Notes under the pieces: model-generated
Database searches by the model: none
What the model saw: only the letters and a program-made list of their open reading frames with translations
Told to the model about the DNA's origin: nothing
DNA from: Cyanobacteria bacterium FACHB-63
GTDB taxonomy: Bacteria > Cyanobacteriota > Cyanobacteriia > Leptolyngbyales > Leptolyngbyaceae
Direction of reading: 5' to 3'
DNA: 64,000 nt
NCBI GenBank assembly: GCA_014695255.1
Contig: JACJNX010000073.1
Span: 1-64,000, forward strand
Translations under genes and position numbers: made by a program
Shown: piece by piece, positions 7,134 through 18,869 of the stretch
Position numbering within the stretch: the first letter of the stretch is position 1
Layout: each line of letters opens with the position of its first letter

Positions 7134-7450
7134 CTCTTTACCTTGGACGTTCGGCTTAGTTTTTCAAATCCATAAAACTCATGCCAACCTCATCTAAAAT
7201 CTCATATACTTCTCGTGACCAAAACTCATTCTGGTATCGTTTATAGCACTAGATACTGATGTTGAAAAAACAGAACCCTGGTTAAACACAATCAGAGTCT
7301 AGATTAGCTTGTTGTAATATTTAGAACCCGCATTGAAAAAATAAGCTATTCCTGATTGAATAAACAAAAACAATTCAAATCCCGTGTTGTCCTAGTTTCT
7401 GTACTGGTGTATTGAGCGCTGAAGTCTAGCAACTATACAGGGGGTGCGCG
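7134..7450. promoter_or_regulatory. Divergent intergenic region between regulator and CHAT genes
   Basis: This AT-rich region of 317 bases must contain both promoters of the divergent pair. No unambiguous -35/-10 pair, operator or gene was identified. Confidence 0.4.
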
Positions 7451-9907
7451 GTGGGACAACGAAAGCGGTTGCGTGTGGCAAAAGCACAGCTAGCGAGAAT
7501 TTGGTATCTAACAGCCCTTGCCTTGTTGCAATTTTTTTGCGTAATCGCTTGGGGCGTTTTCTCAGAAGCTCAGGGAATCGCTCAGACTGCGGCAAATCGT
7601 TCTGTTCCCACGCTGATCTCTCAAACCTTAAGGAGTGGGAACGCTTCGACAGCGCTTGTTCGTGCCCAAACGTTGAACACCCAAGGCGCAAATCAACTTG
7701 CAGCCGGACAAGCAGAAGCAGCGATCGGAACCTGGAAGCAAGCCGAAGCCGCCTACAAAGCAGCAGGCGACAAACTGGGGACGCTAGGCAGCCAGCTAAA
7801 CCAGGTGCAAGCCCTGCAATCTTTGGGTCAATATCGACGTGCTAGAACGACTCTAGAGCAAATCAACACCCAACTGCAAAGCTTACCTGATTCTGCTCTA
7901 AAAGCCGATGGACTCAGAAGCCTGGGGATCACACGATTTCGAGTGGGTGACTTTAAAGAAGCTCAAGCAGTTTTGCAGTCCAGTCTGACAATTTCTCAGC
8001 GCCTGAATGCGAATGCGGGGCAGAGCTATACGCTACTCGCATTGGGAAATCTAACGAGGGCACTCCAGGAACGACAGAAAAAAGATGGTGTAAAAAACGC
8101 GACTACTGAAGCGGGAGCTTCGCTGTTGCCGAAGGCAATCGCTTTCTATCAACGAGCCGCTTCTCTAACCCCTGATGATCTCACACGATCTCAAGCCAAG
8201 CTGAACCAGTTGAGCCTTTTAGCCGCAACAAACCCAACCCTCGATCAAACTCCCCTATTATCAGAAATCCGATCATTGCTCAAGCGTCTGCCCTTGAACC
8301 GTGCATCAATCTATGCCCAAGTGAATCTGGCAGAAAGCCTGATGAAAATGAGCAATCAGGATCAACGAGAAATCTCACAACTGCTCGTTAACGCCACCCA
8401 ACAAGCGCGAGAACTCCGAGATCCGAGGGCAGAAGCCTATGCACTGGGTCAACTGGGTCATCTCTACGAAATACTGCGTCAATGGTCGGATGCTCAGAAA
8501 GTCACGGAACAGGCGCTGCAAATTGCTCAAGCGATTCAAGCGAATGATATTGCAGGCTCTTGGCAGTGGCAGTTAGGACGAGTTCTGAAGCAGCAGGGAC
8601 AAACGACTGATGCAATTGCTGCCTACAATCAAGCCGTTGAAATGCTCTCAGTGCTGCGGGGAGATTTAGTCGCAATGAATCCGGAAGTGCAGTTTTCATT
8701 TCAGGAGCAGGTCGAACCGATTTACCGTCAATTAGTGCAATTGCTATTACAAAACAATCCGAACCAAGCAACGCTACAACGAGCCAGAGAAGTCATTGAA
8801 GCACTCCAGTTAGCAGAACTAAACAATTTCTTTCGAGAAGCCTGCTTAGACGTTAAACCCCAACAAATTGATCAAGTCGATCGCAACGCAGCCGTTGTTT
8901 ACTCGATTCTGCTGCCCGATCGCTTAGCAGTGATTCTGTCGCTACCGGGACAACCGCTGCGGTACTACACTCCCCCTGCACCCTCAGATGCAAGTACGAT
9001 CGAGAAAGCCTTTGATGATCTCTTCGCAACCCTCAACCCATTCATTGCCACCTCAGAGCCGCTGCGCCCAAATCAGCAGCTATACGACTTGCTGGTTCGC
9101 CCTGTTGCAAAAGATCTAGCCCAGAGCCAGGTCAAAACCCTAGTGTTTGTTCTAGATGGTGTCCTACGAGGGGTTCCGATCGCAGCCTTGCATGATGGGC
9201 AACAATACCTCATTGAACAATACAGCATTGCCCTATCTCCTGGTTTGCAACTGCTACCTCCCCGTTGGGAACGTCGCTCTCCAACCGCAACAGTGCCTTC
9301 AAACCAGTTGCAAACCCTAGCAGGAGGGGTATCCGAAGCTCGTCAAGGATTTTCGCCTCTTCCGGGTGTGGTGAAAGAAATGGAGCAAATTTCCACCTTG
9401 GTTCCGACAAATGTTTTGCTGAACAAAGCCTTTACGCGCGCCCAGTTTGAAGGCAGGGTCGAGTCGGTTCCGTTTCCGATCGTGCATCTTGCCACGCATG
9501 GTCAGTTCTCCTCTGAGGCAGAGAAGACGTTCCTATTGACTTGGGATGGACGAATTAATGTAAAAGAGTTCGACCAACTGCTAGAGGGTCGCAATCGCCA
9601 GGATCGTAAACCGATCGAACTGTTGATCTTAAGTGCTTGTCAGACTGCGACGGGCGATAAACGAGCGGCTTTGGGACTTGCAGGAGTCGCAGTACGATCT
9701 GGGGCACGCAGTACGATCGCAACGCTTTGGTCAGTTCAAGATAACTCAACGGCGATTCTGATGACGCGACTCTATGAGGAACTGCGTCAGCCTGAAATCA
9801 CAATAGCCGAGGCATTGCGTCAGGCACAATTGAAGTTGCTACGATCTCCCGACTATCAACAACCTTTCTACTGGGCACCGTTCGTATTGGTGGGCAACTG
9901 GCAGTGA
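7451..9907 (+). CDS. Membrane-anchored TPR-CHAT domain protease
   Basis: CHAT domains are caspase-like cysteine peptidases. The 818-residue protein has a basic N-terminus and one hydrophobic anchor or signal (about residues 17-37). A TPR-rich array follows (about 65-470; for example the WSDAQKVTEQALQIAQ and TTDAIAAYNQAVEML repeats), then a C-terminal CHAT domain (about 500-818). The catalytic pair is visible: His683 in HLATHGQF and Cys730 in LILSACQTATGD. The closing block with FYWAPFVLVGNW is typical. The start is a GTG preceded by AGGGGG. Such TPR-CHAT proteins are common in cyanobacteria; some relatives act in immunity or programmed death, but nothing here shows the substrate. It is monocistronic, divergent from a NarL-type regulator. 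Confidence 0.9.
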   Translation: MGQRKRLRVAKAQLARIWYLTALALLQFFCVIAWGVFSEAQGIAQTAANRSVPTLISQTLRSGNASTALVRAQTLNTQGANQLAAGQAEAAIGTWKQAEAAYKAAGDKLGTLGSQLNQVQALQSLGQYRRARTTLEQINTQLQSLPDSALKADGLRSLGITRFRVGDFKEAQAVLQSSLTISQRLNANAGQSYTLLALGNLTRALQERQKKDGVKNATTEAGASLLPKAIAFYQRAASLTPDDLTRSQAKLNQLSLLAATNPTLDQTPLLSEIRSLLKRLPLNRASIYAQVNLAESLMKMSNQDQREISQLLVNATQQARELRDPRAEAYALGQLGHLYEILRQWSDAQKVTEQALQIAQAIQANDIAGSWQWQLGRVLKQQGQTTDAIAAYNQAVEMLSVLRGDLVAMNPEVQFSFQEQVEPIYRQLVQLLLQNNPNQATLQRAREVIEALQLAELNNFFREACLDVKPQQIDQVDRNAAVVYSILLPDRLAVILSLPGQPLRYYTPPAPSDASTIEKAFDDLFATLNPFIATSEPLRPNQQLYDLLVRPVAKDLAQSQVKTLVFVLDGVLRGVPIAALHDGQQYLIEQYSIALSPGLQLLPPRWERRSPTATVPSNQLQTLAGGVSEARQGFSPLPGVVKEMEQISTLVPTNVLLNKAFTRAQFEGRVESVPFPIVHLATHGQFSSEAEKTFLLTWDGRINVKEFDQLLEGRNRQDRKPIELLILSACQTATGDKRAALGLAGVAVRSGARSTIATLWSVQDNSTAILMTRLYEELRQPEITIAEALRQAQLKLLRSPDYQQPFYWAPFVLVGNWQ

Positions 9908-9952
9908 GCAACTACAGAAAGGTTGTCGTGATTCAAGAAAGTAATGTTACTA

Positions 9953-10117
9953 AGAAGAGATTGCGCTTCACATTCCTGATGAAATTCCAATTGAAATAGA
10001 CTTGGGCTTTTAAGGCTTACAGTCGGACTACACCAATGTTCGCATCCCACACAAGAAGCTGCACGGGGTGAGCTACCCGAATTACAGAAGCAGGACAATC
10101 ATCATTGACGCAATAGG
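9953..10117 (+). pseudogene. Remnant of an IS5-type (DDE_Tnp_4) transposase
   Basis: The plus frame beginning near 9953 reads DEIPIEIDLGF, a stop, then GLQSDYTNVRIPHKKLHG. This resembles the conserved core of DDE_Tnp_4 transposases (IDLGFQGLQ..Y.N..IPHKK), with TAA replacing the Gln codon and decay after HKK. Both ends of the element are gone. It fills most of the gap upstream of the small cysteine-rich peptide gene and suggests past insertion or transfer at this locus. Confidence 0.65.
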
Positions 10118-10253
10118 ATACTCCATCACAAAGTGCCCGTTCGGGTAATAACACTGTGAATCAAATTCTTATATCAATAAAGAGAAGCATTCGAGTGCCC
10201 TCTTCGAGACAGCGCAGAATGCCTCAAATCCTTTATTACTCGGAGTTAAATCC

Positions 10254-10373
10254 ATGAAAACCTTAGATCAACCCGCAATGCCCACGATGAAGAAGTTCGT
10301 TATTCGTGAAGCAGAAACGCTCAAGACAACTCGTGCATCTTATTACGGCTCGTGTTGTTGTAAGTACTGCTAA
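10254..10373 (+). CDS. 39-residue Cys-rich peptide, candidate RiPP precursor
   Basis: The ATG follows CGGAG (about 8 bases upstream). The product is 39 residues. An N-terminal part (MKTLDQPAMPTMKKFVIREA) is followed by ETLKTTRA and a strikingly different tail, SYYGSCCCKYC, which ends the protein. A charged leader-like half plus a short C-terminal core crowded with Cys, Tyr, Gly and Ser is the usual layout of ribosomally made, modified peptide precursors. A perfect terminator hairpin follows the stop by 14 bases. The next gene fuses a PqqD-like peptide-binding domain to an M50 membrane protease, which fits leader recognition and cleavage. No lanthipeptide, YcaO or radical-SAM enzyme is adjacent. 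The precursor role is inferred; I do not recognise the family. Confidence 0.7.
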   Translation: MKTLDQPAMPTMKKFVIREAETLKTTRASYYGSCCCKYC

Positions 10374-10387
10374 TTCACCGTTTATTT

Positions 10388-10418
10388 AAAGCCGCCATCT
10401 CAAGATGGCGGCTTTTAC
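10388..10418 (+). terminator. Perfect hairpin terminator/attenuator between peptide and protease genes
   Basis: AAAGCCGCCATC (10388-10399) pairs without mismatch to GATGGCGGCTTT (10404-10415) across a TCAA loop, followed by a short T-run (TTTTA). It lies between the peptide stop and the ATG of the protease gene 15 bases later. Partial read-through here would give abundant peptide message and little protease message, as in many peptide loci. Confidence 0.9.
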
Positions 10419-10429
10419 CAGAAAAAACA

Positions 10430-11692
10430 ATGGGCACATATACAACAAATACACGGGTTGCAGTTTCTGCGTTTACTCGGCAAGCAGACGAAGAAGAAGT
10501 TGTGATTGGACATCCAGAAACGGCAGTGTTTTTAGTACTTCCTCCCGATGCTGTTGAACTCTTGGATGGTTTAGCAACGGGTAAAACAGTTGGGGAAGTT
10601 CAAGCTGCCTATCAAGCGAAGTATGGCGAAGTTCCTGATTTGGAAGACTTACTTACTTTTCTAGAAAGTAAAGGCTTTGTACATCCTCAGATGCACTCTA
10701 GAGAACTCAGTGGTTTCGATCAAGCAAAGAGTCGCACAGGGACTGTTAATTCTAGCAAACCTCCTCTGGTACGTTATCACTTCGCCAACTTTCCGAGATC
10801 GCTGGCTCAAGCGCTATTTAGCCGAATGGCGATGATTAGTTATGGGGGATTGATTGCTTTAGCATTGATCGCGATCGCGGCAGATCCGACGATCGTTCCT
10901 GGTTGGGATGCTTACTTCTTTAAGCAGAATGCAACAATGATGATCCTAATTATGGTGATTTTAGATTGCATCACGCTATTTTTGCATGAGATGGCTCATC
11001 TGGTTGCAGCGCGGGCACTAGGTGTCTCTTGCCGAATGGGAATTAGTCACCGCTTGTGGATGCTAGTTGCCGAAACAGATATGACAGGCATTTGGAGTGT
11101 ACCCCGACATCAACGCTACCTCCCGTTTCTTGCTGGTCCTTTGTTAGACACTGTATCCGCCTCGGTTCTGGTGTTGATTCTGTCTCTGCAACAGCGCGGA
11201 TTGATTAGCCTGCCTCCGGTAATATTTCAGATTGCTCGCGCATTGCTGCTCAACTATCTCTTGGGACTGCTGTGGCAATGTTACTTTTTCGTCCGGACTG
11301 ATTTCTATTATGTGATCGCCAACTTCTTTCGCTGTAAAAACTTAATGAAAGACACAGAGGTCTTTGTGCGAAATCAGGTTGCTCGCCTGCGCCGGATGCA
11401 TCACATTGATCAATCTCACATTCCAATCAAAGAACGGCGAGTGATTCGGATCTATGCCATTTTGTGGTGCCTCGGTCGAGTCGCTGCTCTTTATGCGCTT
11501 GGTTTTATTACACTGCCATTGATATGGCACTACAGTTTGTCGCTTTTGCCGATCCTTAGGGCTGGCTATCAGGCGAATCCTTACGCCTTTGTTGATGCTT
11601 TGTTGATGCTCTCGATGGTTTGTATTCCTCAAGGTATTGGCTTATGGCTTTGGTTGCGAAGTTTTCAGCTTAAACCCGCTAAATTATCATGA
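10430..11692 (+). CDS. PqqD-like domain fused to M50-type membrane zinc metalloprotease
   Basis: 420 residues. Residues about 10-85 form a PqqD-like fold (PETAVFLVLPPDAVELLDGLATGKTVGEV is the typical centre; split here at 29-57), the domain that binds leader peptides in RiPP systems. From about 130 on there are six or so membrane spans. HEMAH at 186-190 is the zinc-binding HExxH inside a helix, FLAGPLLD (233-240) matches the M50 GP motif, and RTDFYYVIANFF (289-300) supplies the likely third ligand, as in YydH-like peptide metalloproteases. The start lies just after the hairpin and has no good ribosome site. Its stop overlaps the next gene by four bases (ATGA). I infer that it recognises and cleaves the upstream peptide at the membrane. 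Confidence 0.85.
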   Translation: MGTYTTNTRVAVSAFTRQADEEEVVIGHPETAVFLVLPPDAVELLDGLATGKTVGEVQAAYQAKYGEVPDLEDLLTFLESKGFVHPQMHSRELSGFDQAKSRTGTVNSSKPPLVRYHFANFPRSLAQALFSRMAMISYGGLIALALIAIAADPTIVPGWDAYFFKQNATMMILIMVILDCITLFLHEMAHLVAARALGVSCRMGISHRLWMLVAETDMTGIWSVPRHQRYLPFLAGPLLDTVSASVLVLILSLQQRGLISLPPVIFQIARALLLNYLLGLLWQCYFFVRTDFYYVIANFFRCKNLMKDTEVFVRNQVARLRRMHHIDQSHIPIKERRVIRIYAILWCLGRVAALYALGFITLPLIWHYSLSLLPILRAGYQANPYAFVDALLMLSMVCIPQGIGLWLWLRSFQLKPAKLS

Positions 11693-13632
11693 ACATGCCA
11701 CTCACTGCTATGCTGCAATTAGAAATGGGTAAAGTTACGGTTCTAGAAGCAGAATCAGGACAAGCCCGTCAGGATTATTTGCAACGATCGCTAGCTCAAG
11801 TAACAAACGCAGAAACCTGGTTGCTTCGGTGCGATCGCACCGAAGCAGGACCCTGGGCGGGTCTAGCCGATTTGCTAACTCAGATACTGCCTCAAGTTCA
11901 ACACCACGCTCCAGAGTTAATTACACAGCACGACTACGAATTAACCCGCGTTCTGCCTGCTTTACAACGATCGCTACCCGTTCGCTATCCCTCTTTGACA
12001 GATATTGCTCCCCAACAAGAGCAAATCCGCAACTATCCAGCCGATCGCGCCTTTCGGATTATTCACGGTATCATCGATTTTTTAGCTGCTTGGTTTGAGC
12101 AGTCTCAGAGCAACCGCTTGATTATTGCTTGCGATCGCTACGACGACTCTGGTGGATTAGTTCGCATTTTCTTCACCGAATTACTGCGTCGTTGCGGAAA
12201 GCAGTTAAACCTGAGCCTGATTATTGCGATCGCTCCCGAGGCTGATCCGGATGTTGTAGGTAAATTTGATCCAAGTTTGATTGCACAAAGAATTTCGCTT
12301 GATCTACCGCATAGCGCAACTTCGATTGATTTACAAGCAATCAAGGCACAAGTTTGCGAGCTGCAACAGCGCGTTGACAATGATGCGATCGAGCAAGAAA
12401 TTCACTTACCAAGGCTGATTCATTATTTAAAGCTTTGCAATCAGCCTGAACAAGTTTTGACTTACCAAATTAAGGCTGCTGCACTTTACACGCGGCGAGG
12501 ATTTTACGAAGATGGTTTAGACTATGCACAGGCTGCTTTGGCACAACTAAAGCAGTGTCACCCAGACGGTGAGAAGCATTGGCAAATTGATTCCTTGCTG
12601 TATACCTGTTATGTCGCTTTAGACAAACCAAACGCTGCTTTTGCAGTACTCGAAGCAGCGATGCAAAGAACCAACACTGCGGACGATCGCTTCCGAGGTT
12701 GTTTCATGATGGCGATGTTGTACATTCGTGAACTTGAAGAGCGTGACATTGCCAAAGCAGAAGCATATTTGGAGCAAGGACTCATAGAATTAGCCCGAAC
12801 TACTTTTTCAGAGGAAGAAAAACTGTTTCACACCACCTTCAATCGAAACGGTTTAGCTTTAATTCGCTACCGTCAGGGAAGACACCAAGAAGCCGTAGAG
12901 CTTTGTCAATGGTGCTATCAACAAGTCAATGCTGTGATTCAGCCTGATCAACATCGTCTCTATCGATCGGTTCTGCTGTTCAACATTGCTCAGGTGTATG
13001 ACTTTATCGGCAACTATGCGGAAGCGATTCAATACTTCACAGCAGCAATGGAACTTGATCCAAATTACTCTGAATACTACAACTCGCGAGGAAACTTATA
13101 CTTCAAGCTAAATCAGCCTGATGATGCTCTCGATGACTACAAACGGGCAGTTGAATTGAGTGCGCCTTATCCAGAAGTTTGGGCAAATATTGGTCAAAGC
13201 TATCGACGCTTAGGCAATTGGACAGCGGCAGTTGATGCCTATTCTAGAGCGTTAGACTTGCAGCCGCAGCAGTTTTCTGTTTTGGTGGCGCGTGCCCAAG
13301 TGCTAGAGATGCTAGAACAACCGGAATCTGCTTTGGCTGACTACAGTGCCGCGATCGCAATTGATCCAACGCAGCCCTTGGTGCTAGCAAATCGCGCAAT
13401 CTTACACTACGGTATCGGGCAAGTTTCAGCCGCTTTAAACGATTTAAATCAAGCGATCGCTCTTGCTCCAGAAATAGCGGATTTATACCAGAATCGAGCG
13501 ATTGCTTTAACGAGTTTGGGTCGCTCTGAAGCTGCAATTCAAGATCTGCGAACTTATTTACAACTTTGTCCTGACGCTGAAGACTACACGGAGGTAGAAA
13601 GCCAAATGCTAGCTCTGCGATCACTGAACTAA
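11689..13632 (+). CDS. TPR protein with degenerate STAND/AAA-like N-terminal region
   Basis: 647 residues, translationally coupled to the M50 protease gene by ATGA overlap. The N-terminal third has the layout of the ATPase domain of MalT/AfsR-like regulators: KVTVLEAESGQARQDYLQRS sits where a Walker A loop is expected but lacks GxGK[ST], and NRLIIACDRYDDSGG sits where Walker B is expected. From about 240 the protein is helical repeats, with clear TPRs from about 430 to 630 (EAIQYFTAAMELDPN, DALDDYKRAVELS, AAVDAYSRALDLQP, ALADYSAAIAIDP, AALNDLNQAIALAP, AAIQDLRTYLQLCP). It is probably a scaffold or regulator for the peptide system, possibly no longer an ATPase. Its function is inferred from context only. 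Confidence 0.75.
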   Translation: MNMPLTAMLQLEMGKVTVLEAESGQARQDYLQRSLAQVTNAETWLLRCDRTEAGPWAGLADLLTQILPQVQHHAPELITQHDYELTRVLPALQRSLPVRYPSLTDIAPQQEQIRNYPADRAFRIIHGIIDFLAAWFEQSQSNRLIIACDRYDDSGGLVRIFFTELLRRCGKQLNLSLIIAIAPEADPDVVGKFDPSLIAQRISLDLPHSATSIDLQAIKAQVCELQQRVDNDAIEQEIHLPRLIHYLKLCNQPEQVLTYQIKAAALYTRRGFYEDGLDYAQAALAQLKQCHPDGEKHWQIDSLLYTCYVALDKPNAAFAVLEAAMQRTNTADDRFRGCFMMAMLYIRELEERDIAKAEAYLEQGLIELARTTFSEEEKLFHTTFNRNGLALIRYRQGRHQEAVELCQWCYQQVNAVIQPDQHRLYRSVLLFNIAQVYDFIGNYAEAIQYFTAAMELDPNYSEYYNSRGNLYFKLNQPDDALDDYKRAVELSAPYPEVWANIGQSYRRLGNWTAAVDAYSRALDLQPQQFSVLVARAQVLEMLEQPESALADYSAAIAIDPTQPLVLANRAILHYGIGQVSAALNDLNQAIALAPEIADLYQNRAIALTSLGRSEAAIQDLRTYLQLCPDAEDYTEVESQMLALRSLN

Positions 13633-14129: not shown

Positions 14130-17100
14130 GTGCCACCCATGTTGCAGATTCAACTTCTTGGCGGGTTTGACTTGTCCTACGGCGACCAGAGTTTGACGGG
14201 GGCGGCTTCAGAACGGCTTCAGTCTTTACTGGCCTATTTAGCCTTGAATCGGCAAAAGGCACACCCTCGCCAACACTTAGCCGCTCTATTTTGGACAGAC
14301 TCGAATGATACACAAGCTCGAACCAACTTACGTAAAGAGCTATACCATCTGCGGCAAAACTTACCGGATGTAGAACAGATTTTACGTATCGAACCAAAAA
14401 CACTCTCATGGTCGCCAACGGTTCCGTTTACGCTGGATGTGATCGACTTTGAGAATGCCGCAGAACAGGATCAACTCGAACCCGCGATCGCGCTCTATCG
14501 CGGTGAATTGCTGCCCCAGTGCGATGACGATTGGATTACTCCGGAGCGCGATCGACTTCAGCAATTGTATGTTCGAGTCTTGGAGCAATTAATTGAACGA
14601 TTCAAAGGGCAACAAGACTATCGTTTAGCCCTGAACTACGCACAGCAACTCTTACGGGTTGATCCGCTGAATGAATCGACCTACTGTACCTTAATGCGAC
14701 TGCATGATTTGAGTGGCGATCGCGCCAATGCGCTTCAGGTTTATCACCGTTGTATGACCATGCTGCGCGAGGAGTTGGGCATTGATCCCAGTCCCACCAC
14801 TCGCAAGCTCTATGAACAACTGTTGCGAGAAGAGGAGTTACCCCCAGACAAGCCCCGGATTCAGCAAGTACGCTATCTCCAGCCATCATCACCGCCGCAA
14901 TCCTCTCTACCTCTAGTTGGACGTAGCCCAGAGTGGAGCCGAATTCAAGACTGGGCAAGTTCAGCTACTCAAGTTCTCTTGTTAAGCGGTGAACCGGGAA
15001 TTGGCAAAACTCGATTGTTAGAGGAACTCCGAACAACGGTGCCAGTTGCGCTTTGGGGACGGGGATTTGCTGCCGAAATGGTGCGTCCCTACGGGATTTG
15101 GATTGATGCTTTACGATCAGTGCCGCTCCCACAGACTGTTCCAGCAGAATTGGGTTTCCTGCTGCCAGAGTTCGGGCAACCCGTCAAAGCCCCACCCGAT
15201 CGTAGCCATTTGTTTGATGCGGTGGTGCAACTGCTGGCAGACTGGACAACGCAAACTCCCTTGCTGGTGATACTCGATGATATTCAGTGGATGGATGAAG
15301 CATCATCAGCACTGCTGCACTATGCGAGTCGATTGCTGAGTCATCTTCCGGTTAAATTTGCTTGTACGGCTCGTTCTGGAGAATTATCCAAAAATGTCGC
15401 GATTTCGCAAGTTCTGCAATCGCTGCGACGCGAACAACGATTAAACACGATCGAACTCCAACCCTTCGATCGTGGCAACACGGCGGAATTGATTTGCAAG
15501 GTCAATACCGATCACTCGTTTGATCTGTCCCTAGAGCTGATCGATCAAGTCTTTCAGGACAGCGGCGGGAATCCTTTATTTGTTCTAGAAATTGCGCGGG
15601 CGTTGTCACAAAAACAGTCCCATTATGCGGATAATTTGGAAGCCTTGATTCACGCTCGACTGCAACAATTGGATGACCAGACACGCGACCTTTTACCCTG
15701 GGCAGCCGCACTCGGACGCAGTTTTAAGCCTGCAAGGATCGCTCAGGTTGTAGACTATCCGTTGCCGCAGCTATTAACCGCGATCGCACACCTAGAGCAA
15801 CAAAGCATGATTCGTCCTAGTACAGCGATCGGAAACGAACTGGGCTATGACTTTGCTCATGATGTGGTGCGCCAAGTTGTGTATGAACAGATGTCGGAGC
15901 CGTGCCGTCAATTGGTGCATTTGCAAATTGCTCATAAGCTCAACCAACTCACGACTCCTGACAATGCGTTAGCGGGTGAGATTGCTCATCATGCACGGCT
16001 AGGAGGCGATCACGTACTAGCTGCTTCTAGTGCCTTGCTTGCCGCAGAACGCTGTCTTAAATTATTTGCCTATGCGGAAGCGGCAGTGCTGGCTCAACGA
16101 GGTGTGCAGTCGTGTCAATGGCTCGATCGACAAACTCGCGTTCACTTGCAGTTGAGATTGCTTCGAGTTTGGGCAACTGCAGGCGTAACAGGCGATCGTG
16201 TCACTCAGATCGAAGCCGAAGTGCGTCAACTGATGGCAGAAGCGAGTCGATTAGGGTCAAACGATGATGAAGCGATCGCTCATGAAACCTTAAGTGTTCT
16301 GTATTATGAGCAAGGCAACTATGCTGAACTACATCAACATTCCCTGCGATCGACCGAAGTGAGCCGTGCCGCCAGTCCCGCAACAGCAGCCAGAGTTTTA
16401 GGGTTAAGCGGCTCCTGCTTGACAGAATTGGGACAGGATATGATTCGGGGAGAAGCAATCCTCCTGGAAGCACAATCGCTGGCGAGTCGAGTTGGGTTAG
16501 AGCAGAGCGATATCTATGGTGGATTGGGAGCTATTGAACTGCATAAGGCACACTATGATGCAGCACGGGCTTTCCTACAACGGGCATTACAACTCGCGCA
16601 GAGAGACCAAGACCGTTGGCGAGAGTGCAATTGCTTAACGAATCTGATCATGACCGAGCTAGAGGCGGGGGATGCCAATGCTGCCTTATCCTATTGTGAA
16701 GCTATGACGACTCTGGTTGCTCAGATTGAAGGAAAGGAGAGTGAAAGCGCAGTGGCAGCCGCATTGATGGCACTTGCCCATTACCAGCTTCAGCGTCTCA
16801 ATTCAGAACTCAATCTAGAAGCCGCGATCGTCAGACTGAAACAATTGGACATCAAGCGAATGCAGGCTTATATTCTGATTGGCGCGGCGGAAGTGAATTT
16901 TGTACAGGAACAATTTGAGTTAGCCGCTGTTCGAGCGGAGGAAGCTCTACAAATGGCTCAGATCATGAAGCATCCAAGCGAGATTGCGATCGCGTGGGCA
17001 TTGTTGATTCAAGCTGTTTTAGCATTAGGAGAAACAGATCGAGCCACTGCGCTATTTGAAACGCTACAGAATCACATCGATCTCCGTTTGCTCAGTGTCC

Positions 17101-17159
17101 GTGCCCGAAGTCAAGTCGATCACATGATGCAACAACTAAAACTGTTCACGTCTAATTGA
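14130..17159 (+). CDS. SARP-type transcriptional activator (wHTH-BTAD-AAA-TPR)
   Basis: 1009 residues in the AfsR/large-SARP arrangement. Residues 4-100 are an OmpR-like winged helix (LQIQLLGGFDLSYGD, ARTNLRKELYHLRQ). Residues about 105-235 are the bacterial transcriptional activation domain (DFENA, YRGELLP, EELGIDPSPTTRKLYEQLL). A STAND/AAA ATPase follows, with Walker A GEPGIGKT at 287-294 and Walker B LLVILDDIQW at 378-387. A long TPR-like region (about 600-1000) completes it. The GTG start has GAGGGAGGA about 9 bases upstream. SARPs bind direct repeats spaced by about 11 bases next to the -10 box; two such promoters lie downstream (17711-17767 and 22273-22317), so it probably controls this accessory region. 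It is followed within 5 bases by the DUF4242 gene. Confidence 0.9.
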   Translation: MPPMLQIQLLGGFDLSYGDQSLTGAASERLQSLLAYLALNRQKAHPRQHLAALFWTDSNDTQARTNLRKELYHLRQNLPDVEQILRIEPKTLSWSPTVPFTLDVIDFENAAEQDQLEPAIALYRGELLPQCDDDWITPERDRLQQLYVRVLEQLIERFKGQQDYRLALNYAQQLLRVDPLNESTYCTLMRLHDLSGDRANALQVYHRCMTMLREELGIDPSPTTRKLYEQLLREEELPPDKPRIQQVRYLQPSSPPQSSLPLVGRSPEWSRIQDWASSATQVLLLSGEPGIGKTRLLEELRTTVPVALWGRGFAAEMVRPYGIWIDALRSVPLPQTVPAELGFLLPEFGQPVKAPPDRSHLFDAVVQLLADWTTQTPLLVILDDIQWMDEASSALLHYASRLLSHLPVKFACTARSGELSKNVAISQVLQSLRREQRLNTIELQPFDRGNTAELICKVNTDHSFDLSLELIDQVFQDSGGNPLFVLEIARALSQKQSHYADNLEALIHARLQQLDDQTRDLLPWAAALGRSFKPARIAQVVDYPLPQLLTAIAHLEQQSMIRPSTAIGNELGYDFAHDVVRQVVYEQMSEPCRQLVHLQIAHKLNQLTTPDNALAGEIAHHARLGGDHVLAASSALLAAERCLKLFAYAEAAVLAQRGVQSCQWLDRQTRVHLQLRLLRVWATAGVTGDRVTQIEAEVRQLMAEASRLGSNDDEAIAHETLSVLYYEQGNYAELHQHSLRSTEVSRAASPATAARVLGLSGSCLTELGQDMIRGEAILLEAQSLASRVGLEQSDIYGGLGAIELHKAHYDAARAFLQRALQLAQRDQDRWRECNCLTNLIMTELEAGDANAALSYCEAMTTLVAQIEGKESESAVAAALMALAHYQLQRLNSELNLEAAIVRLKQLDIKRMQAYILIGAAEVNFVQEQFELAAVRAEEALQMAQIMKHPSEIAIAWALLIQAVLALGETDRATALFETLQNHIDLRLLSVRARSQVDHMMQQLKLFTSN

Positions 17160-17163
17160 GGTC

Positions 17164-17691
17164 ATGATGTCACTCGTTATTGTTGAAACCGTTACCGAAC
17201 AGCCGATGACTGATGCTTACCTGGAGGAAGCTGATCAGCTTGCTTTGCCCTGTCTAGAAGCTCATAATGTGACTTGGCTGCATTCTTTGTTATCGAGCGA
17301 TCGTCACCAGATGATTTGTATCTTTGATGCGCCAGATGCGATGTCTGTGCGAAATTCCTACGCCAAACTTGGACTTCAAAAGTATGCAATCTGGGCAGGG
17401 GAGATCATTCAGTCAGAAGACATTCAACCGCTACCAGAGTTAGCAGAACATTCTGTCATCAAAGTCCATGATCCTACTTCGAGCGAAACAAACTGGAACG
17501 AAGCCCAGCAAAAATTCTCGCAATGCTGTGTGGCGCATGGAATCAACTGGCTCCGCGCTTATGTGTCGCTCGATCGCACTCGAACCATCTATGAATTTAT
17601 GACACCGGATGTAGAGTCTCTACGAAACATTCAGCATCAAGTGAACCTCTCTTGCGATGGCATCTGGTCGGGTCAACTTTTAATCCCTTGA
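17164..17691 (+). CDS. Tandem DUF4242 (ferredoxin-like, SCO4226-type) protein
   Basis: 175 residues built from two copies of one domain. Copy 1 (about 3-85) contains HNVTWLHSLLSSDRHQMICIFDAPDA. Copy 2 (about 95-175) contains HGINWLRAYVSLDRTRTIYEFMTPD at the same place. This pattern (H-x-V/I-x-W-L..., then acidic-Pro-Asp) is that of DUF4242 proteins, small alpha/beta barrels of which SCO4226 is reported to bind nickel. The function here is unknown. The ATG follows the SARP stop by 4 bases, and the ribosome site GAGG overlaps that stop, so the two are likely cotranscribed and coupled. Confidence 0.75.
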   Translation: MMSLVIVETVTEQPMTDAYLEEADQLALPCLEAHNVTWLHSLLSSDRHQMICIFDAPDAMSVRNSYAKLGLQKYAIWAGEIIQSEDIQPLPELAEHSVIKVHDPTSSETNWNEAQQKFSQCCVAHGINWLRAYVSLDRTRTIYEFMTPDVESLRNIQHQVNLSCDGIWSGQLLIP

Positions 17692-17710
17692 TGAGTGGGG
17701 GTTTCAGGTT

Positions 17711-17767
17711 TGGAACGTTTTGGAACACTTTAGAAACGGTTTTGGAACGACACGATCGCTACCTTAA
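17711..17767 (+). promoter_or_regulatory. SARP-type promoter: phased direct repeats plus -10 box
   Basis: Four TTTGGAACG-like repeats have their conserved C at 17716, 17726, 17737 and 17748 (spacing 10, 11, 11). A -10-like TACCTT lies at 17760-17765. Known SARP operators are heptameric direct repeats at about one helical turn, close upstream of the -10 and replacing a -35. From the last repeat onward the sequence aligns gap-free with the element at 22273 (GAACG, three bases, CGATCGCTA, CT or TT, AA). It drives the methyltransferase gene at 17796. Confidence 0.65.
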
Positions 17768-17795
17768 GTTCAGATGAATCTTCAAGGAGCAACCC

Positions 17796-18869
17796 ATGAC
17801 GACCCAAACTCTCGATTCCACCAAAGCAGAAGCTTTTGCTGGAAGAATGATTGATATTCTTAACAGTGCTGCTTTGACATTGATGATCTCAATCGGTCAT
17901 CGCACTGAACTGTTTGACACCATGGCAGAACTTCCACCCTCGACCAGTCAGCAAATTGCCAATGCTGCTGGATTGAATGAGCGCTATGTGCGTGAATGGC
18001 TCGGTGCAATGGTAACAGGTTCCCTTGTGAACTATGACACAGCTCAGCAAACTTATGTGCTACCTGCCGAACACGCTGCATTTTTGACAAGAGTTGCCGA
18101 ACCGAATAATCTTGCGCTGTTTGCTCAATTTCCTCCCATGCTGGCTTTAGTCGAAGACCAAATTATCGACTGCTTTTACAAAGGAGGCGGGGTTCCCTAC
18201 TCTGAGTTCAATCGCTTCCATACGGTCATGGCAGAAGCAACCAATCAAGGAACCGTTACTCCATTATTCGATGGGGTGCTGCCGTTAGTTCCGGGACTGA
18301 CTGAAGCATTGCAGCAAGGCATTGATGTTTTAGATGTAGGCTGTGGCTGTGGAAAAGTTCTCAACCTCTTGGCTGAAGCTTTCCCGAGTAGTCGATTTAC
18401 GGGCTACGATTTCTCAAGTGAAACGATCAAGGTCGCAAAAGCTGAAGCTCAACGACATCAGTTATGCAACATTGAATTTCAAGTCAAAGATGCGGCTACG
18501 ATCGAGGAATGCGATCGCTACGATCTGATCATGACATTCGATGCGATTCATGATCAAGCAAAACCGGATCAGGTGTTACGAAACATCTATCGAGCCTTAC
18601 GTGCTGATGGAACTTACCTGATGCAAGAAATTCGGGCTGCAACCAATGTCGAGGAAAACTTAGTTCATCCACTCGCCCCTTACTTCTACACCGTTTCCTG
18701 TATGCACTGTATGACCGTTTCTCTCGCTTATGGTGGAATGGGTTTAGGTGCAATGTGGGGACAGGAAACAGCACAGCGAATGCTAAGTGAAGCTGGTTTT
18801 AAGCGCATTGAAATCAAGCAGCTACCACAAGACCTCGTAGAAGACTATTACATCGTTCACAAGCAATAA
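17796..18869 (+). CDS. SAM-dependent methyltransferase with N-terminal winged helix
   Basis: 357 residues, strong ribosome site AAGGAG 8 bases upstream. Residues about 15-100 form the winged-helix dimerisation domain seen in Rv2258c-like methyltransferases (ISIGHRTELFDTMAELPPST, GLNERYVREWLGAM). The Rossmann domain carries the SAM-binding motif VLDVGCGCGKVL (178-189), then FTGYDFSSE and DLIMTFDAIHDQ. The C-terminal part (HCMTVSLAYGGMGLGAMWG) is the substrate-side region of this family. Substrate unknown. It stands behind the phased-repeat promoter, so it is the best candidate for direct activation by the SARP protein. Confidence 0.85.
   Translation: MTTQTLDSTKAEAFAGRMIDILNSAALTLMISIGHRTELFDTMAELPPSTSQQIANAAGLNERYVREWLGAMVTGSLVNYDTAQQTYVLPAEHAAFLTRVAEPNNLALFAQFPPMLALVEDQIIDCFYKGGGVPYSEFNRFHTVMAEATNQGTVTPLFDGVLPLVPGLTEALQQGIDVLDVGCGCGKVLNLLAEAFPSSRFTGYDFSSETIKVAKAEAQRHQLCNIEFQVKDAATIEECDRYDLIMTFDAIHDQAKPDQVLRNIYRALRADGTYLMQEIRAATNVEENLVHPLAPYFYTVSCMHCMTVSLAYGGMGLGAMWGQETAQRMLSEAGFKRIEIKQLPQDLVEDYYIVHKQ

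Follow-up and report, generated by a model that had tools for sequence, protein, structure and literature searches.

We analyzed a 64,000-nucleotide stretch of DNA from Cyanobacteria bacterium FACHB-63 (contig JACJNX010000073.1; this whole stretch is called the window below), in which three genes follow one another on the + strand between positions 10254 and 13632. They encode a 39-residue peptide, a protease that fuses a PqqD-like RiPP recognition element (RRE; RiPP, ribosomally synthesized and post-translationally modified peptide) to an M50 site-2 protease, and a tetratricopeptide repeat (TPR) protein. We found that the arrangement exceeds chance and recurs in other genomes as a conserved peptide–RRE/M50–TPR unit.

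The peptide, protease, and TPR genes

The peptide gene (10254–10373, +), delimited by its open reading frame (ORF), an alignment of homologues, the leader pattern, and the proportions of synonymous (pS) and nonsynonymous (pN) differences, encodes MKTLDQPAMPTMKKFVIREAETLKTTRASYYGSCCCKYC. As a preliminary description of the locus had claimed, a ribosome-binding site, GGAG (10242–10245, +), lies 8 nt 5′ of the ATG; sites of the GGAG or AGGA type precede most of the relatives' precursors. Alignment and pS/pN mark residues 12 to 26 (MKKFVIREAETLKTT; 10287–10331, +) as a conserved leader, and alignment and a comparison of cores mark residues 27 to 39 (RASYYGSCCCKYC; 10332–10370, +) as a variable core, with cleavage of the window peptide expected at the KTT|R junction. 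The peptide matched no family in Pfam or NCBIfam, and the window genome held no convincing second copies elsewhere (next matches E 0.6 and 4). Between the peptide and protease genes lies a hairpin followed by a short T run (10388–10415, +), AAAGCCGCCATC-TCAA-GATGGCGGCTTT, which scored z = −6.7 against shuffled sequences and has a comparable counterpart at the equivalent position in two relatives (L010 and L012). It had been called a perfect terminator: the 12-bp stem is indeed without mismatch, but the T run is only four long, too short for a strict terminator scan to pick up the hairpin, which is likely a partial terminator.

The protease gene (10430–11692, +) encodes 420 residues, assigned from Pfam, NCBIfam, alignment, and predicted structure. 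Pfam matched M50 (E 1.4e-5) and PqqD (E 0.005), both just below the curated cut-offs; the M50 match is below cut-off in most members of the family and above it in one (L074). An AlphaFold2 model (mean predicted local distance difference test score, pLDDT, 84.8) unites both predicted folds in one chain, in agreement with the PqqD–M50 fusion first proposed. For residues 8 to 89 (10451–10696, +), compared by Foldseek and VIA-align, the best solved match was the lasso-peptide RRE TbiB1 with its leader (Z 10.8, root-mean-square deviation 2.6 over 82 residues), with other RREs ranking lower, and this part of the model is a true RRE fold. Residues 115 to 362 (10772–11515, +) aligned by VIA-align with SpoIVFB (Z 7.7) and the Methanocaldococcus jannaschii site-2 protease (Z 7.0) over 154 residues, values that unrelated helical proteins can attain, and the M50 assignment is therefore carried by the zinc motifs. 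These are HEMAH (residues 186–190; 10985–10999, +), with H186, E187, and H190 invariant among 22 homologues, and TDFYY (residues 290–294; 11297–11311, +), which holds the second zinc ligand and in which T290, D291, and Y293 are invariant in the same set. With HExxH and the distal Asp both in the membrane core of the model, sequence and predicted structure together identify the protein as an M50/site-2 protease. A search of PDB sequences with the M50 family found nothing, and PADLOC placed the protease in no defence family.

The TPR gene (11689–13632, +), defined by its ORF, Pfam, alignment, and a model, overlaps the protease stop codon as ATGA and encodes 647 residues. Its model (mean pLDDT 91.3) shows TPR repeats behind an N-terminal alpha/beta domain. 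AAA_16 was matched in two orthologues (E 1.4e-5 and 6.4e-4), and across 15 orthologues the GKT position of the P-loop reads GxxR, with G24 and R27 invariant and the P-loop lysine lost; the protein is thus likely to be a STAND-type ATPase that has lost its activity, much as the preliminary description had it when it called the ATPase degenerate. For this protein, PADLOC gave TPR matches and, beyond these, a single weak match to a candidate family.

Conservation, linkage, and neighborhood of the unit

Homologous loci were located through the protease, and the peptide was not used in the search: a single scan of 84,980 species genomes yielded 15 loci, and further loci came from whole-genome searches and one Streptomyces plasmid. 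Each of the protease loci examined (25/25) had 1 to 5 short ORFs just upstream with the common leader MKKFVIRExETLKTT, behind which the tails vary and run to 9 to 29 residues; homologues of the fusion in this clade thus always carry such an ORF, one of the two points on which the original proposal could have failed. Allowing one substitution, the leader pattern matched 38 times in the 1.6 kb upstream of proteases and not once in the remaining 723 kb of strand sequence from the loci; since the pattern was derived from these peptides, the contrast is a gauge of specificity rather than a discovery made independently. Among 386 cyanobacterial genomes, a peptide profile matched strongly in only two, the very two that have a close protease orthologue, and gave one additional weak match (E 0.008). 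Whole-genome searches of 16 positive genomes found the peptide with the protease locus and no second peptide cluster; one assembly (L019) divides the peptide array between two contigs. Nostoc loci carry 2 to 5 near-identical tandem precursors.

The TPR gene lies directly 3′ of the protease in most loci, in three phyla, and is missing next to the protease in L022, L077, and L081. It is therefore accessory, and the irreducible unit is the peptide plus the RRE–M50 protease; of the trio first described, these two recur in all 25 loci, whereas the third member does not.

Codon-level comparison points to selection on the leader. Over its 15 codons, the window peptide and those of L010, L011, and L012 differ with pS of about 0.8 and pN of 0 to 0.03, and all pairs together give pS 0.83 and pN 0.12, so that synonymous sites are near saturation while the amino acids are almost fixed. 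The leader sequences are thus under strong purifying selection, and the reading frame is conserved at the codon level, the other point on which the original proposal could have failed; this conservation, together with the 38 matches against none, rules out a chance ORF. Cores are constrained inside clades (window versus L011, pS 0.98 and pN 0.13) and diverge between them, as seen in RASYYGSCCCKYC, AAAAYVCWICSSCW, AAAAYPWWLCTGWPF, AAVYHEWCIVTAATN, AILLYPIFACIGRVLPF, and TTAGCSVSA. Judged by sequence, a fixed leader with a changing core is the pattern of RiPP-type precursors, and here such a precursor is linked to its putative maturation protein, as in RiPPs in general.

Among 24 distinct cores, Cys occurs in 23 and an aromatic residue in 22. 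The expected co-occurrence of a short upstream ORF with a GSCCC-like tail was borne out for the ORF but not for the tail: CCC is confined to the clade of the window, other cores have 1 to 5 Cys, and that of L082 has none, which excludes the Cys cluster as a defining trait. Core C-termini are diverse, ending in C, W, F, L, N, I, A, V, G, or S.

The unit is sporadic: it is present in Cyanobacteriota, Myxococcota (5 of 195 genomes), and Actinomycetota, but the seven other species in the genus of the window lack it, as does the remainder of the order (1 of 42 genomes positive). This patchy distribution suggests spread by horizontal transfer, or frequent loss. Two short contigs with uncertain labels also carry the full unit. 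On the tree, the one labeled Rubrobacter (L013, 4.2 kb) falls with a cyanobacterium, and its binning may be wrong; the label of the other, Bacillota (L021, 5.4 kb), is uncertain, and no others were found among 149 genomes of Bacillota. Viral contigs held no relatives.

The loci had no gene cluster in common beyond the protease and TPR genes. Pfam scans of the nearest neighbors of each locus found mutually unrelated genes, among them integrase, PIN, AraC, sensor kinase, GH43, MacB, and hemerythrin. The scanned flanks shared no gene of the radical-SAM, YcaO, lanthipeptide, ThiF, or daptide kind and none for an exporter, and none of the lantibiotic-dehydratase or peptide aminoacyl-tRNA ligase type was present in them; the absence of a dedicated modifying enzyme in cis, noted at the outset for the window, thus extends to its relatives.

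Individual neighborhoods have features of their own. In the window, a large CHAT-domain protease with TPR repeats (7451–9907) lies directly 5′ of the peptide; a relative of it stands past the unit in Nostoc linckia (L020:7325–10201), and the loci do not otherwise share such a gene. Downstream, 14130–18869 encodes a BTAD–AAA_16–TPR regulator followed by an SCO4226-like protein and an Rv2258c-type methyltransferase. This regulator and the degenerate domain of the TPR protein fall into one broad class of ATPases, and a profile comparison of the TPR family with this 14130 protein aligned only the TPR repeats; the methyltransferase (17796) and the regulator were ruled out as parts of the unit, since relatives lack them. 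The TPR-less locus of the Gloeobacterales (L022) has an HlyD-like gene and a pair of ABC exporter genes, one of which encodes a C39 peptidase domain; these genes are convergent to the unit (7318–13208, −) and possibly serve peptide export. A myxobacterial locus has a radical-SAM-like ORF with the motif CSLRCIHC about 5 kb beyond the TPR gene (L073:16551–17612), not conserved in other loci, and in Dactylosporangium a DUF3050 haem-oxygenase-like gene and a cupin-like ORF (L081:9189–10487) are convergent to a solo M50 locus.

Proposed maturation mechanism and rival explanations

We consider it probable that the unit is a minimal leader-guided peptide maturation module. In this mechanism, the RRE at the front of the protease would bind the near-invariant leader MKKFVIRExETLKTT, and the fused site-2 (M50) protease would cut at or near KTT|(A/R), which would free a C-terminal peptide of 9 to 29 residues that is rich in aromatics and usually contains Cys. 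The same protease may let the product leave the membrane, by analogy with the epipeptide protease EpeP, and such an exit would fit the absence of a conserved exporter. The TPR protein, as an accessory, would most likely be a regulator, receptor, or chaperone that binds either the peptide or the protease. Both roles that the preliminary description gave to the fused protein fit what we found: the predicted RRE fold and the almost invariant leader suggest leader binding, and the intact, invariant active site suggests cleavage. The conserved precursor, the RRE fold, the intact protease motifs, the gene linkage, and the lack of a conserved modifying enzyme support the module by sequence and structure prediction; from these we infer the binding, the cleavage site, the release, and the part played by the TPR protein, with the daptide protease MpaP and EpeP as analogies. 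The product may be a signal or a bacteriocin.

Some points weigh against the module. Site-2 proteases usually act on transmembrane helices, and the precursor has no obvious one; very short polar cores at two loci (TTAGCSVSA and ANADCVPAAA) fit poorly with a single product function; and the core could be modified in trans, an alternative taken up below.

One alternative is a pheromone system like Rap-Phr or Rgg-SHP-Eep, in which a short peptide freed by the M50 protease binds the TPR protein, which relays the signal. This is a special case of the maturation module, so the two do not exclude each other, and we regard it as possible but on balance doubtful. Peptide, M50 protease, and TPR protein are co-encoded, the AAA_16-like domain is of a kind found in regulators, and the TPR part of the model aligns with Rap receptors at Z 18 to 20, although TPR repeats match many proteins equally well. 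However, three loci (L022, L077, and L081) have no TPR gene, the TPR protein has no recognized DNA-binding domain, and no peptide importer is linked. A broader proposal, which we put forward tentatively and hold to be rather unlikely, is a new class of peptide hormones in cyanobacteria, myxobacteria, and actinomycetes, made by leader-guided intramembrane proteolysis alone without a modifying enzyme or exporter, whose short Cys- and aromatic-containing peptides would act via the encoded pseudo-STAND TPR protein.

Less likely is a full RiPP, whose core (e.g., its Cys, Tyr, or Trp) would be modified by an enzyme whose gene lies elsewhere in the genome, with the RRE–M50 protease only removing the leader at the end. 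RRE–M50 leader peptidases come last in daptide biosynthesis (PMC10036551), and the frequency of Cys and aromatics in the cores would suit modification. Yet flanks from three phyla have no modifying gene in common, the sole radical-SAM-like ORF seen is that 5 kb away in one myxobacterial locus, and an enzyme acting in trans would need to travel separately with a sporadic unit.

An AgrD-like thiolactone, in which the protease or another protein would link the conserved near-C-terminal Cys to the C-terminal carboxylate, is quite improbable: the Cys is often 4 to 9 residues from a hydrophobic C-terminus (CWPF, CWPL, CTGWPF, CLPFAF), distant RRE–M50 relatives adjoin ThiF-like enzymes, and one ThiF-like RiPP enzyme makes thiolactones (PMC12250964), but these loci contain no ThiF gene, the cores of short ORFs beside the ThiF-linked variants lack Cys, and so does the L082 core. 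A pearlin-like scaffold, from which the protease would cut a single modified C-terminal amino acid as the membrane-bound M50 proteases TglG and TmoG do in pearlins (PMC10885120), can practically be dismissed given the variable C-terminal residues and the scanned flanks free of ligase-type genes.

RRE systems are usually found via their modifying enzymes, and a unit with a protease as its only enzyme is easily overlooked, because both Pfam domains are mostly sub-threshold and the peptides have no NCBIfam model. If the maturation mechanism holds, it would offer a short, testable route to new secreted peptides or cell–cell signals, a two-protein model of RRE-guided intramembrane cleavage, and a search handle that combines the leader KK[FIL]xVRxxExxKTT with RRE–M50.

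Comparison with known systems

A literature search, with subscription journals mostly outside its coverage, returned no description of a peptide–RRE/M50–TPR trio, and the unit is apparently an undescribed variant of RRE-dependent precursor systems. The nearest known counterparts are DapP/MpaP, an RRE-peptidase of daptides, and EpeP, a leader peptidase of the M50 type. MpaP has been described as an RRE-dependent intramembrane peptidase that takes off the daptide leader (PMC10036551). Like DapP/MpaP, the protease here fuses an RRE to an M50 intramembrane protease and is encoded beside short precursors, often several per cluster. The NCBIfam daptide model NF041824 (daptide_HExxH) matched it weakly over both domains (E 1.2e-9; 37.8 bits, cut-off 300), and on the tree the daptide proteases stand apart on a very long branch. 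Unlike in daptides, a linked oxidative decarboxylase, aminotransferase, methyltransferase, and DUF-RRE protein are not common to the flanks, and whereas daptide precursors have an ELExMEAP motif and an invariant C-terminal Thr, those here have MKKFVIRExETLKTT and no core ending in Thr. Profile score, leader, and missing enzymes thus rule out daptide membership.

EpeP has been described as sufficient for EpeX production and is thought to cleave and export EpeX (PMC10885120). The protease here resembles EpeP (YydH) as an M50 intramembrane protease that would serve a short precursor. EpeX is modified by the radical-SAM enzyme EpeE; unlike in epipeptides, no radical-SAM gene is conserved in the scanned flanks, and the protease here is paired with a TPR protein instead. 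The likeness to TglG and TmoG lies in a membrane M50 protease that would act on small peptides in a RiPP-type pathway, but unlike in pearlins no ligase gene is linked. In TMcin (TmcA/TmcP), a bacterial peptide loses its leader in the membrane to an enzyme of the site-2-protease clan (PMC13252029); this system differs in having a DUF3267 protease with no RRE mentioned, a precursor with a transmembrane helix, and clusters in Gram-positive bacteria. The RRNPP systems (Rap-Phr, and Rgg-SHP with Eep) likewise combine a short peptide with a TPR protein, a fold also found here. Rgg/SHP also uses an M50-type protease, and RRNPP receptors are cytoplasmic and act with a peptide importer; unlike the unit here, these systems have no RRE and no degenerate AAA_16 domain.

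The same RRE–M50 superfamily includes ThiF–RRE/M50 pairs in actinomycetes and distant cyanobacteria (L029, L080, and L083–L085), in which a ThiF-like adenylyltransferase replaces the TPR protein and the adjacent short ORFs have cores without Cys. Two of these loci have a short ORF ahead of the ThiF gene, with a leader pattern that resembles the one here (KARKLEKVETT; KIRRMEKLETP). The ThiF-like gene stands directly before the RRE–M50 gene at L080:9376–10926 (−) and L029:2054–3550 (−), where the preceding short ORFs are KKIELKARKLEKVETTGWRVIGAGG and KKLEIKIRRMEKLETPAGSYNNRSYGYFVFTS; Streptomyces and Nocardia plasmids (L083–L085) carry similar ThiF–M50 pairs. On the tree, the TPR-linked, solo, and ThiF-linked proteins cluster without being cleanly monophyletic. 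The related leaders at the two ThiF-linked loci hint at a wider RRE–M50 superfamily with exchangeable partners.

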